A stretch of 31,388 nucleotides of DNA from a virus. Position numbers and translations under genes: made by a program. Where the stretch lies: the IMG/VR virus record IMGVR_UViG_3300043409_000277, positions 1 to 31,388 of that record, one strand, 5' to 3'. Positions 6,421 to 28,925 of this stretch are shown one piece after another (within the stretch, counting starts at the first letter, position 1; each line of letters begins with the position of its first letter). The notes under the pieces are model-generated. The model ran no database searches and was not told the origin of the DNA. It saw only the letters and a program-made list of their open reading frames with translations.

Positions 6421-8576
6421 GTTTCACCAAGAAGTCAGATTGGCTTTACTTCGCTCCGGCAAACGCTGCCGGTGATCCTGCTACCGTTCAGATCTTCGAT
6501 CAGATTGGCGAAGACTGGTACGGCGGTTCCGGTCTATCTGCAAAGCAGTTTTCGGATGTACTCAACGAGATTGGCAATGGTCCGCTGCTCGTAGAGATCA
6601 ACTCTCCCGGCGGAAATGTTTGGGATGGTCTCAGCATTTACAATCAATTGCGCGGTCGCAAAGCTCCAGTGACCACTCGGGTTGTTGGCATTGCGGCTTC
6701 CATTGCGTCAATTATCGCTCTTGCCGGTGATCGCGTAGAGATGGCTGACGCTGCTCTAATGATGATCCACGATCCGTCAGGTATGGCTTCTGGTACTTCC
6801 GAGGATATGCGGAAGATGGCTGAGGCTTTGGATCAACACGCTCAAGTGTTGGTTGGAGTGTATGCTAAAAAGACTGGTCGCTCCGCTGAGTCTATCCGCG
6901 CTGCGATGAAAGCCGAGACTTGGTTTACTACCGCTGAGGCTCTGGCTTTTGGCTTGGTTGACAAACCCATCAAGCAGCTTGCAATGGCCGCGAAATGGCA
7001 CCCTCGCGCTGTCACCAAGACCGCTCCTGAGACTGTCAAAAACAACCTCCGTCGAGGTCTTGAGCAATACGATGAGGGTCTCGCCGGTGACGGTCTTGAA
7101 CCCGCTACAGTAGCTGACGCTAAGTCGCTGATTTCTGGCGAAGCTCCTACCGCAGATAAGGTTGATAAAGCCTATAATTGGTGGGCGCGTAATGGCCGCT
7201 TTCTTGAGGCGGAACCTAATACTCCTGCGGACGTAGCGGCTAACCTCTGGGGAGGTGCTGCTGGACGCGATTGGTTCAACGCTCTATATGCTCAGATTGA
7301 GCGTCAAGAAGAGCAAGAAGACGAATCCCTAGACGACAAGCTTTCTGCTAATAGCCAAACCGCTAACGGCAAAAATGGCGTGGACTCCACGCCGCAACCA
7401 ACACAACAACCCGACACAAATATGTCCGATTCCACTACTGTGACGGCTGCGGCTGCTCCTGCCGCTTCCGTTGATCTCGCTACTATCATGGCAAAGCTTT
7501 CCGCTTTGGAGGCTTCCATTAAGTCGCCCACCGCCGCTCCCGCTCCTGATCCGGTTCGTCCCGTGATTCAGAACTTGGGCAACCCGCTGCTGGAGAAGCA
7601 CAAGTCTCTCCGCGCTGGTGCAGAGCGTAAGAGTTTCCTCATTGAGAATCATGGTGAGTTGCTGCGTCAGTCCGCAATGATCGCCCCCCAGAACGCTAAC
7701 ACGTTCGCGGCTGGCTTGGTTGTCGATTATCTCGCTGATGCGGTTATCACTGTTGCTACCACTAAGCTCGCGATGATCGCTGGCTTTACGCGCAACGTTG
7801 GCTTGGATAACCTCCGCCCCCGCGCTACCGTTCAGGTCAAGAAGTTTACCACTGGTGATGCGACTGTTGATAACGCTACCAACTTTGAAGATGGCGCGGC
7901 TAACCAGTCCACGCTGGCTGCTACCTCGGTGACTGTTAATCAGATCACCAAGAGTTTTACCGTCACTCAGCAGGAGTTGAATCAGGGTTTTGCTATCAGC
8001 GACTTGGCTCAGGGTTCTGCTGAGATCTTTGCTCTTGGTATTAGCAAGAAGGTCACCGCTCAAATGACCGCCGCTCTGTTTGGTGCTGGTACTGTCATTG
8101 GTACTGCTGCCAACTTTGATTCTAGCGACCTCCCTGCGATCTTGGCTCTGGCTAAGAACTACCGCCAGAAGTTGCTTCTGTTGGACGGTGGGCATCTGGC
8201 TCGTTTGATGTTCTCCGGTCAGTTGACTGCTGCCGCTGGAACTAATCCGTTCCCTGATTCGCGTTATGGTCCGTTGAACAACGGCTATTTCGGCTTTGCG
8301 AACATCTTGGAGCAAAACGATTATACTGGTGCTATCGCTAACACTGCTGGCTTCGTTTGTGGTCAGGACGCTATCGCGATTGCGAGCGGCTTGCCGGTTG
8401 GAATGATCGCTGGCGAGTTCGTTGAGCAGCGCACTGTTGAGTTGAGCAATGGTCTGTCTGTGTTGCTCTCTGTGTGGTATTCCCGCTCTACCCGCGCTCA
8501 CATGGCATCTTACGATATCATGTTTGGTGCGGCTGCTGCGGATACTACGCAAGCTGAGGTTTTGATCACCGCTTAA
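6417..8576 (+). CDS. Prohead protease (ClpP/S14-like) fused to HK97-like major capsid protein
   Basis: This 719-residue ORF joins two functions that are often separate genes. Residues 1-190 are a ClpP-like head-maturation protease: INSPGGNVWDGL, nucleophile S95 in GIAASIAS, H118 in MIHDPSG, and a likely third acidic residue, E167, in ETWF. Residues about 230-300 carry a conserved-looking block with YNWWARNGRF and LWGGAAGRDWF. A charged linker (EEQEDESLDDK) and an Ala-rich, scaffold-like helix follow, then an HK97-type capsid domain from about 395 to 719. An in-frame ATG at 7422 (MSDSTTVT) could start a shorter scaffold/capsid form. Self-cleavage would be expected to release mature capsid protein. 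The start is coupled to the portal by ATGA. Confidence 0.88.
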   Translation: MSFTKKSDWLYFAPANAAGDPATVQIFDQIGEDWYGGSGLSAKQFSDVLNEIGNGPLLVEINSPGGNVWDGLSIYNQLRGRKAPVTTRVVGIAASIASIIALAGDRVEMADAALMMIHDPSGMASGTSEDMRKMAEALDQHAQVLVGVYAKKTGRSAESIRAAMKAETWFTTAEALAFGLVDKPIKQLAMAAKWHPRAVTKTAPETVKNNLRRGLEQYDEGLAGDGLEPATVADAKSLISGEAPTADKVDKAYNWWARNGRFLEAEPNTPADVAANLWGGAAGRDWFNALYAQIERQEEQEDESLDDKLSANSQTANGKNGVDSTPQPTQQPDTNMSDSTTVTAAAAPAASVDLATIMAKLSALEASIKSPTAAPAPDPVRPVIQNLGNPLLEKHKSLRAGAERKSFLIENHGELLRQSAMIAPQNANTFAAGLVVDYLADAVITVATTKLAMIAGFTRNVGLDNLRPRATVQVKKFTTGDATVDNATNFEDGAANQSTLAATSVTVNQITKSFTVTQQELNQGFAISDLAQGSAEIFALGISKKVTAQMTAALFGAGTVIGTAANFDSSDLPAILALAKNYRQKLLLLDGGHLARLMFSGQLTAAAGTNPFPDSRYGPLNNGYFGFANILEQNDYTGAIANTAGFVCGQDAIAIASGLPVGMIAGEFVEQRTVELSNGLSVLLSVWYSRSTRAHMASYDIMFGAAAADTTQAEVLITA

Positions 8577-27190: not shown

Positions 27191-27313
27191 ATGACATTCA
27201 AAAATGAAGCCATGTTCAACCAATTTCTCCCCACTCTTTCTGTGTACGTCCCGTCGCTTCAGCGGGAGTTCTCACCACAGACTGAGTGGGGATTTTCTTT
27301 GGAGAATACATGA
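27191..27313 (+). CDS. Possible 40-residue leader peptide coupled to the C5 methyltransferase
   Basis: An ATG at 27191 opens a 40-codon ORF (starting MTFKNEAMFNQF, ending FSLENT) whose stop overlaps the methyltransferase start as ATGA, the usual coupled junction here. A purine-rich GAGAAG lies upstream at a suboptimal spacing. The ORF contains a strong nested dyad (27229-27291). It could be a true small gene, a leader peptide controlling the methyltransferase, or a chance frame over a structured leader. Confidence 0.4.
   Translation: MTFKNEAMFNQFLPTLSVYVPSLQREFSPQTEWGFSLENT
27229..27291 (+). promoter_or_regulatory. Nested RNA dyad just before the methyltransferase ribosome-binding site
   Basis: CCCCACTC (27229-27236) pairs with GAGTGGGG (27284-27291); after a symmetric two-base internal loop TCTGTG (27239-27244) pairs with CACAGA (27276-27281); further in, TCCCG (27249-27253) pairs with CGGGA (27263-27267). 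The structure ends ten bases before the GGAGA ribosome-binding site (27301-27305) and is followed by ATTTTCTTT. It could be a terminator/attenuator or a translational control element. Confidence 0.5.
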
Positions 27314-28140
27314 ATGAGTTGGCACTTTTTGCAGGAGCGGGAGGAGGAATTTTGGGCGGATCACAACTTGGATGGCGCACCAGATGCGCTGTTGAGATTG
27401 ATCCCTACGCAAGAAAATGTCTCTTGTCTCGACAACGGGACGGAGCACTGGAGCCGTTCCCCATCTGGGACGACATCAAGACCTTTAGCGGTTACCAGTG
27501 GAGAGGCTCCATTGACATCATCACAGGAGGATTTCCCTGCCAAGATATTTCGTCCGCTGGACGAGGGGGGGGGATTTCCGGTGAGAAAAGCGGATTATGG
27601 AAGCAGATGGCGCGAATTGTCGGTGAGGTACGACCTCGGTTCGTCTTTGTGGAAAACTCACCGCTGCTTGTGGTCAGAGGTCTTGGAACCGTTATCGGTG
27701 ACCTTTCCTCGATGGGGTATGATTCTAGGTGGGGTATTGTGGGAGCGCATCACGCAGGAGCCAATCACCAGCGAAACAGAATTTGGATCGTTGGAAAAAT
27801 GGCCGACACCGAGAAGCTGCTCTGCGATGGCAGCAACGATAACTCCAGAGTCAGCTTGGAACGAAAAAAGAGAGCCGAATTTGGAGACAGTAGTTGGGAG
27901 GAGACATTGGCCGACTCCAACACTTGCTTCTCTAGTTGGTGGAAAGCTGAACCCAACGTGGGTCGAGTGGTTAATGGGCTGGCCGTTAGGCTGGACAGAT
28001 CTCAATCCAATCAAGATGGAGGAACTGCTCCGTTGGAAAATTGCATTCCAGACAGACCAAAGCGTTTGCGAGCAATCGGAAACGGACAAGTCCCTGCCGC
28101 AATGATGATCGCTTGGAAAACCCTAACCCAAGACCTATGA
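27310..28140 (+). CDS. C5-cytosine DNA methyltransferase
   Basis: The 276-residue product from ATG 27310 (GGAGA ribosome-binding site at 27301) has the C5-methyltransferase motifs in order: motif I LALFAGAGGGILGG (AdoMet, residues 4-17), motif IV GGFPCQDIS with catalytic C77, motif VI VFVENSP, motif VIII HQRNRIWIV (153-161) and motif X RAIGNGQVPAA (254-264). The target-recognition part between VIII and X is short. It may protect phage DNA from host restriction. A second ORF in the +1 frame covers most of the gene. Related phage enzymes with EPxVGRVxxGL near motif X are familiar; here it reads EPNVGRVVNGL. The stop overlaps the next gene as ATGA. Confidence 0.92.
   Translation: MNELALFAGAGGGILGGSQLGWRTRCAVEIDPYARKCLLSRQRDGALEPFPIWDDIKTFSGYQWRGSIDIITGGFPCQDISSAGRGGGISGEKSGLWKQMARIVGEVRPRFVFVENSPLLVVRGLGTVIGDLSSMGYDSRWGIVGAHHAGANHQRNRIWIVGKMADTEKLLCDGSNDNSRVSLERKKRAEFGDSSWEETLADSNTCFSSWWKAEPNVGRVVNGLAVRLDRSQSNQDGGTAPLENCIPDRPKRLRAIGNGQVPAAMMIAWKTLTQDL
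27314..28105 (+). CDS. Overprinted ORF in the +1 frame of the C5 methyltransferase
   Basis: A 263-codon frame starting ATG 27314 lies wholly inside the methyltransferase gene. Its product is not random-looking. Residues 99-145 contain WRELSVRYDLGSSLWKTHRC and TFPRWGMILGG, two WPTP motifs follow (163-166 and 199-202), and residues 212-230 read LNPTWVEWLMGWPLGWTDL. I recognise these from database proteins found near phage cytosine methyltransferases. The last motif resembles C5-methyltransferase motif IX (LTPxExxRLMGFP). It overlies exactly the conserved VGRVVNGL segment of the other frame. Whether it is translated, by its own start or by frameshift, cannot be told. Conservation may simply reflect the conserved methylase codons. 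Confidence 0.4.
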   Translation: MSWHFLQEREEEFWADHNLDGAPDALLRLIPTQENVSCLDNGTEHWSRSPSGTTSRPLAVTSGEAPLTSSQEDFPAKIFRPLDEGGGFPVRKADYGSRWRELSVRYDLGSSLWKTHRCLWSEVLEPLSVTFPRWGMILGGVLWERITQEPITSETEFGSLEKWPTPRSCSAMAATITPESAWNEKREPNLETVVGRRHWPTPTLASLVGGKLNPTWVEWLMGWPLGWTDLNPIKMEELLRWKIAFQTDQSVCEQSETDKSLPQ

Positions 28141-28925
28141 ACGAAGACAAGAAAACCCGTAAGGCTCCAGCCTTCCAGTTCTACGCTGACGATTTTTTAG
28201 CAGGAACAGCGGACATGAGCGCGGAAGAGGTTGGTGGATACATCAGACTGCTCTGCCATCAGTGGTCTAAAGGCGGAATCCCATCAGACGAAGATAGGTC
28301 CGCTCGCATAGCGGGACTAATGGGGTCGCCATCGATTCGCTATGTTCTCGCTAAGTTCACGCTATGCGATGGCGATACGTTGAAGAACGTCCGACTAGAG
28401 CAGATCCGGCAAGAACAAGCGGACTACAAGCTAAAACAAGCCGCATCCGGCAAGACTGGAGCGCAAAAGCGATGGGATAAGCCCAAATGTGATGGCAACC
28501 CTAATGGGGTCGCTATAGCAACCCCAATGGCAACCCCAATGGCGAATGCATGGCGAAGTGATAGCTCTCCATCTCCTTCTCCTACTCCTAATAAGAAAGA
28601 TACAGCGGCTCCTAAGTCGCCGTGGGAGGTTTCCTTCGGAGTTGAGCTACCGGAGAGCTTGCGAACCGATAGCTGTCTCCAAGCCGTTAAGCTCTGGCTC
28701 CAATACAAAGCCGAGAAGCGTGAAGGCTACAAGAAGACCGGACTTACAGCAGCACTGACCAAGTGGTCCCGAGAGTTTACCGCTGCTGACTTCCCGACTG
28801 TCGTCGAGAACTCAATCGCTAATGGATGGAGAGGAATTTTCCCTAAGAAAGACTTGCAGCAAAACTTATCAATATCTGGTCAACCGAAGACCGTTCTCTC
28901 AGAAAACATTGCTGACTACCTATGA
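28137..28925 (+). CDS. DUF1376 / YdaU-like replication protein
   Basis: From ATG 28137 (ATGA overlap) the product is 262 residues. Residues about 10-85 are the DUF1376 domain (APAFQFYADDFLAGTADMSA, then EEVGGYIRLLCHQWSKGGIP). A low-complexity linker follows (ATPMATPMANA from a short tandem DNA repeat at about 28519-28545, then SPSPSPTPNKK), and a C-terminal helical domain (SLRTDSCLQAVKLWLQYKAE, LTKWSREFTAADF) that may interact with DNA or helicase. It lies directly before a DnaB-like helicase and is likely to be the replication initiator or helicase loader. The upstream frame to 28041 is a shadow. Confidence 0.75.
   Translation: MNEDKKTRKAPAFQFYADDFLAGTADMSAEEVGGYIRLLCHQWSKGGIPSDEDRSARIAGLMGSPSIRYVLAKFTLCDGDTLKNVRLEQIRQEQADYKLKQAASGKTGAQKRWDKPKCDGNPNGVAIATPMATPMANAWRSDSSPSPSPTPNKKDTAAPKSPWEVSFGVELPESLRTDSCLQAVKLWLQYKAEKREGYKKTGLTAALTKWSREFTAADFPTVVENSIANGWRGIFPKKDLQQNLSISGQPKTVLSENIADYL

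Follow-up and report, generated by a model that had tools for sequence, protein, structure and literature searches.

Reading frames A and B, which share the same DNA in a tailed phage, are probably the two subunits of one split C5-cytosine DNA methyltransferase, with B giving target recognition and motif IX. Comparison of the homologous sequences supports frame B as a real overlapping gene, presumably translated. On balance, we also favour the broader reading that a large phage and prophage family carries an obligate nested two-gene enzyme, in which the overprinted frame B is ancient, dominates selection on the 3' third of the locus and is mostly unannotated.

Two reading frames on shared DNA

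The window (the whole stretch of DNA analysed, 31,388 nucleotides, IMG/VR record IMGVR_UViG_3300043409_000277) encodes a terminase gpA and a lambda-type portal, and belongs to a tailed phage. The A/B pair lies immediately upstream of a DUF1376 gene and a DnaB-type helicase gene, and has the following features:

27301-27304, plus strand: GGAG, Shine-Dalgarno-like in sequence, with spacings of 5 nt to the A start and 9 nt to the B start
27310-28140, plus strand: frame A, C5-cytosine DNA methyltransferase large subunit (proposed), 276 aa, ATG start; motifs I-VIII and X, motif IX absent
27314-28105, plus strand: frame B, +1 frame, ATG start, 263 aa; would be the small subunit and carry the target-recognition region and motif IX
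27314-27316, plus strand: start codon of frame B, inside A codons 2-3 (ATGAATGAG)
27535-27543, plus strand: PCQ, motif IV of frame A with the catalytic Cys77 (sequence and conservation)
27650-27667, plus strand: WKTHRC of frame B; this DNA also encodes VENSPL (motif VI) of A
27704-27721, plus strand: FPRWGM of frame B; conservation z reaching 33 relative to synonymous shuffles (localisation only)
27800-27919, plus strand: variable region of frame B with two WPTP motifs, at the place of a target-recognition domain
27800-27811 and 27908-27919, plus strand: the WPTP copies of frame B
27947-28003, plus strand: LNPTWVEWLMGWPLGWTDL, putative motif IX in frame B (dNN/dNS and hhalign)
28078-28095, plus strand: GNGQVP, motif X of frame A (A dNN/dSN 0.22 at residues 245-272)

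Both open reading frames were as the original prediction had described them, with WKTHRC, FPRWGM, the two WPTP motifs and LNPTWVEWLMGWPLGWTDL all in frame B, and with WVEWLMG (B) and VGRVVNG (A) encoded by the same DNA. Frame B starts 4 nt downstream of the A start and covers nearly all of A, whose stop codon is at 28138-28140. The open reading frame list placed the A start at a GTG (27286) 24 nt upstream; the ATG at 27310 is the better reading. The GGAG at 27301-27304 could serve as ribosome-binding site for both starts. The A stop overlaps the start of the DUF1376 gene as ATGA (28137-28140), suggesting translational coupling. A short tandem repeat (2.2 copies of GCAACCCCAATG, 28518-28543) was present within the DUF1376 gene. 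Elsewhere in the window, a 407-codon open frame on the minus strand (7329-8552) runs antisense to a gene with a ClpP-like protease domain.

Frame A matched PF00145 (8.5e-31, residues 4-175) and phrog_363 (2e-57). In keeping with PF00145 membership, motifs I, IV (PCQ), VI, VIII and X were all present; motifs I-VIII and X were found in A and motif IX was absent, an absence already noted in the original prediction. Among 65 homologs, P76 and C77 were invariant, Q78 was conserved in at least 90%, and the PCQ, EN, R155/R157 and GNGQVP positions were invariant or near-invariant. A pattern search of 14 A-type genes did not recognise motif IX in the A polypeptide, while the canonical set has it in frame. 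The AlphaFold2 model of A had pLDDT values above 90 across most of residues 1-165 and 260-273 (about 92 in the motif X helix, 260-273) and low values at 175-257. High confidence thus coincides with the predicted large domain and the motif X helix, and the low stretch falls exactly where the small domain would be expected. Foldseek matched the model to M.HaeIII and M.HhaI across the large domain (E about 1e-15, TM about 0.53).

Frame B matched phrog_1008 (2.6e-17), a family of phage proteins that carries the label DNA methyltransferase. None of the Pfam and NCBIfam models searched matched B, and its profile gave only chance matches against PDB sequences. The structure model of B was poor (mean pLDDT 57), and Foldseek did not find a methyltransferase small domain with it. 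In the B profile, LNPTWVEWLMGWPLGWTD was aligned by hhalign to motif IX (KLHPRECARVMGYPDSYKV in HhaI) with a score of 18.6, while none of 100 column shuffles scored above 15.4. The alignment was unforced and was the same when the target was the whole canonical alignment. The match extends over only about 20 residues (E 0.006 in a single comparison; HHsuite probability 6%), and the assignment of motif IX to B, which we regard as probable, is carried by position and complementarity more than by score. The last motif of B had originally been likened to the motif IX missing from A, and both this alignment and the contrast between A-type and canonical genes described below agree with that proposal.

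W113 and T115 of B (in WKTHRC) were at least 90% conserved, and z for this motif reached 23.6 relative to synonymous shuffles. The whole-family conservation z-scores overstate, since shuffling also breaks relatedness and the +2 control rises too, and they were used for localisation only. In L123, L126, L128 and L147 the B variable region is longer owing to repeats of a (W/L/I/F)PTP unit, and both frames stay open across the inserts; from these sequences, the variable region of these loci looks modular.

Conservation and selection across the family

IMG/VR was searched with B and with A, giving 155 loci, and A and B were in identical register in all 155. A further 80 loci came from bacterial genomes searched with the B profile, in Pseudomonadota, Verrucomicrobiota, Bacteroidota, Actinomycetota, Bacillota, Nitrospirota and other groups; metagenome-assembled genomes account for many of these 80, and some are probably prophages or phage contigs. 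When phage and bacterial loci were scanned with separate A and B profiles, the +1 overlap was found in 232 of 238. The remaining six comprised three in which the two frames trade places at one point and three truncated by contig ends. The former had appeared to be in-frame A-B fusions, a possibility that was rejected: both frames are swapped at a single point, as by a single indel. The search for standalone B genes and for in-frame fusions thus yielded neither. Among the 238 loci, B was found without A only at contig ends. In L008, L019, L078, L145 and L146, B is interrupted and A intact; B may have decayed there, the sequence may contain errors, or A may be independent of B.

Many survey loci were retrieved with B, so a less biased check was made with an M.HhaI query, which gave 30 C5-methyltransferases from 32 surveyed genomes; here the genomes had been selected for carrying B, and the genes had not. 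B was present in 14 of 14 A-type genes (profile score at least 164), none with a recognisable in-frame motif IX. By contrast, the canonical genes (profile score below 100) had motif IX in frame in 16 of 16 cases and B in none of the 16.

For the stop test, synonymous codons were shuffled in 81 homologs of less than 80% identity, with the A protein and codon usage of every gene held constant. Three stops were observed in B across the overlap vs. 350 expected, and B was fully open in 79 of the 81 genes vs. 1.0 expected from the shuffles. The +2 frame control showed 1143 stops vs. 1007 expected. For the window gene alone, shuffles averaged 3.7 stops in B across the overlap, and not one of the 300 left B open.

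The start of B was also conserved. Of 190 distinct homologs, 145 had ATG at this position and 13 had GTG, and a Shine-Dalgarno-like motif was present upstream in 143 of the 190. The A Asn2 codon was AAT rather than AAC at a ratio of 143:2, vs. 668:1185 elsewhere in A, and the B start codon was conserved more often than the A start codon.

Frame-specific dN/dS was estimated in 38 independent pairs and depends on the MAFFT alignments of A. The dNN/dNS of B was 0.42 overall (0.36-0.50) and below 1 in 37 of the 38 pairs. Ordinary flanking genes at these loci, in an equal frame relation, already gave 0.74 (0.67-0.81); the neutral reference is therefore 0.74, and judging the ratio against 1 was dropped. 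In the catalytic part, B dNN/dNS was modestly under the ordinary-gene value (0.56, 0.48-0.65). It fell to 0.31 (0.21-0.44) in the variable region (A residues 161-211) and to 0.14 (0.07-0.23) at LNPTWVEWLMGWPLGWT in the motif IX region, and was 0.65 in the motif X region. The A dNN/dSN in the catalytic part, variable region, motif IX region and motif X region was 0.17, 0.73 (0.61-0.87), 0.68 and 0.22 respectively. As A is nearly free and B constrained at A residues 161-231, this DNA mainly serves B.

Near-zero stops, the conserved start, frame-specific purifying selection and a register kept from phages to many bacterial phyla all favour a true overlapping gene, one of the three possibilities first raised. 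The homologs showed neither B interrupted by stops (3 in 81 genes) nor synonymous sites of A evolving freely across the overlap.

A proposed split enzyme and its alternatives

In the split enzyme that we propose, A would form the large catalytic domain, comprising the AdoMet site, the PCQ motif with its catalytic Cys, motif VIII and the helix of motif X. B would be translated from its own ATG, probably via a ribosome-binding site common with A, and its C-terminal third would be the small domain absent from A (target-recognition region and motif IX). Residues 1-150 of B overlap the catalytic domain. A and B would then assemble into one active enzyme that methylates phage DNA. Phage methyltransferases generally protect phage DNA from restriction, and protection against host restriction would most likely be the function here. 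The pair may derive from a single-chain ancestor whose reading frame changed at some point between motif VIII and the target-recognition region, so that the C-terminal half came to lie in the +1 frame; a second frame change would have returned motif X to A in most lineages, and B would have been extended upstream. Of 235 loci, 226 have motif X in frame A. Motifs IX and X are together in frame B in six homologs (L072, L096, L124, L138, L142 and Streptomyces phage Vash, gp32/gp33, L273), and motif X thus changes frame between family lineages.

It is unlikely that B is a real protein with a separate job (e.g. anti-restriction or regulatory) whose overlap with the methyltransferase arose by chance. 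WKT and FPRWGM of B had no counterpart found in known methyltransferases, and the lack of a Pfam match also fits such a protein. However, B without A was seen only at contig ends, and the in-frame motif IX present in canonical genes was unrecognised in the B-bearing A genes. In the six homologs named above, B also runs on past motif IX into motif X, a methyltransferase part, in its own frame, which ties B directly to the methyltransferase C-terminal half.

Programmed ribosomal frameshifting, which would join the A catalytic domain and the C-terminal part of B in a chimera, was also among the first suggestions and is still less probable. Since the same six homologs have motifs IX and X in B, and most of their A frames end soon past motif VIII, a +1 shift there would give a complete single-chain enzyme. 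Elsewhere this is less likely, because motif X lies in A past the segment in the 226 loci and the chimera would be without it. Moreover, B has its own ATG, conserved more often than the A start, and conserved motifs in its N-terminal half.

The last suggestion, that B is open and conserved merely through conservation of A, draws on parts of B that sit on conserved A residues (WKT under VEN of motif VI) and on the modest B constraint across the catalytic domain, but it is practically ruled out by the synonymous-shuffle and dN/dS tests, with 3 stops vs. 350 at fixed A protein and codon usage, B conservation strongest where A is least constrained, and the 143:2 preference for AAT at the B start.

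The split-enzyme reading has consequences for annotation. A alone was annotated in most records examined, including RefSeq E. coli and most phage records, and the probable specificity-deciding subunit is therefore missing from phage and bacterial annotation. If A were cloned alone, an inactive enzyme would be expected. The locus would be a deep-rooted example of DNA shared by two proteins of a proposed complex, recurring in phages and in bacteria of many phyla, and the lineages with motif X in the other frame would allow direct tests of how overlapping genes and split enzymes evolve. If the obligate nested reading is true, the N-terminal half of B, which uses DNA that also encodes the catalytic domain of A, would be a domain of unassigned fold that emerged through overprinting.

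Comparison with known methyltransferases

In M.EcoHK31I the small-subunit gene lies inside the large-subunit gene in a different frame. A and B likewise overlap, in the +1 register in 232 of 238 loci, but here B starts 4 nt past the A start and spans nearly all of A. The literature searched for an overlap in phage cytosine methyltransferases, or for this family as a nested pair, returned no report; split C5-methyltransferases are known, and the nested pair across this phage family appears to be without a paper in that literature. Catalogued relatives of frame B are phrog_1008 (annotated as DNA methyltransferase) and gp56 of Paenibacillus phage Shelly ("g55 internal gene"); neither entry states a subunit role in an overlapping methyltransferase.

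M.HhaI and M.HaeIII resemble A in the large domain, and their motif IX aligns to B. They differ in being single polypeptides with motif IX in frame and without an overlapping gene. Split C5-methyltransferases known to work include M.AquI and M.EcoHK31I (PMC3404938). The natural split of M.AquI is between motifs VIII and IX (PMC3404938), and L072, L096, L138, L142 and Vash gp32/gp33, with both motifs IX and X in frame B, share this division of motifs. In the window and most homologs, unlike in M.AquI, motif X is in the large subunit.

As far as PMC3404938 describes M.EcoHK31I (from E. coli, recognising YGGCCR), the large subunit has motifs I-VIII and X and the smaller polypeptide motif IX (citing Lee, Kam and Shaw 1995), and the predicted target-recognition region is placed in the large subunit. 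Likened to that account by motif layout, A has motifs I-VIII and X, and the putative counterpart of motif IX is in a second polypeptide, B. The two systems would differ in that, in the loci studied here, selection suggests that B holds the target-recognition region as well.
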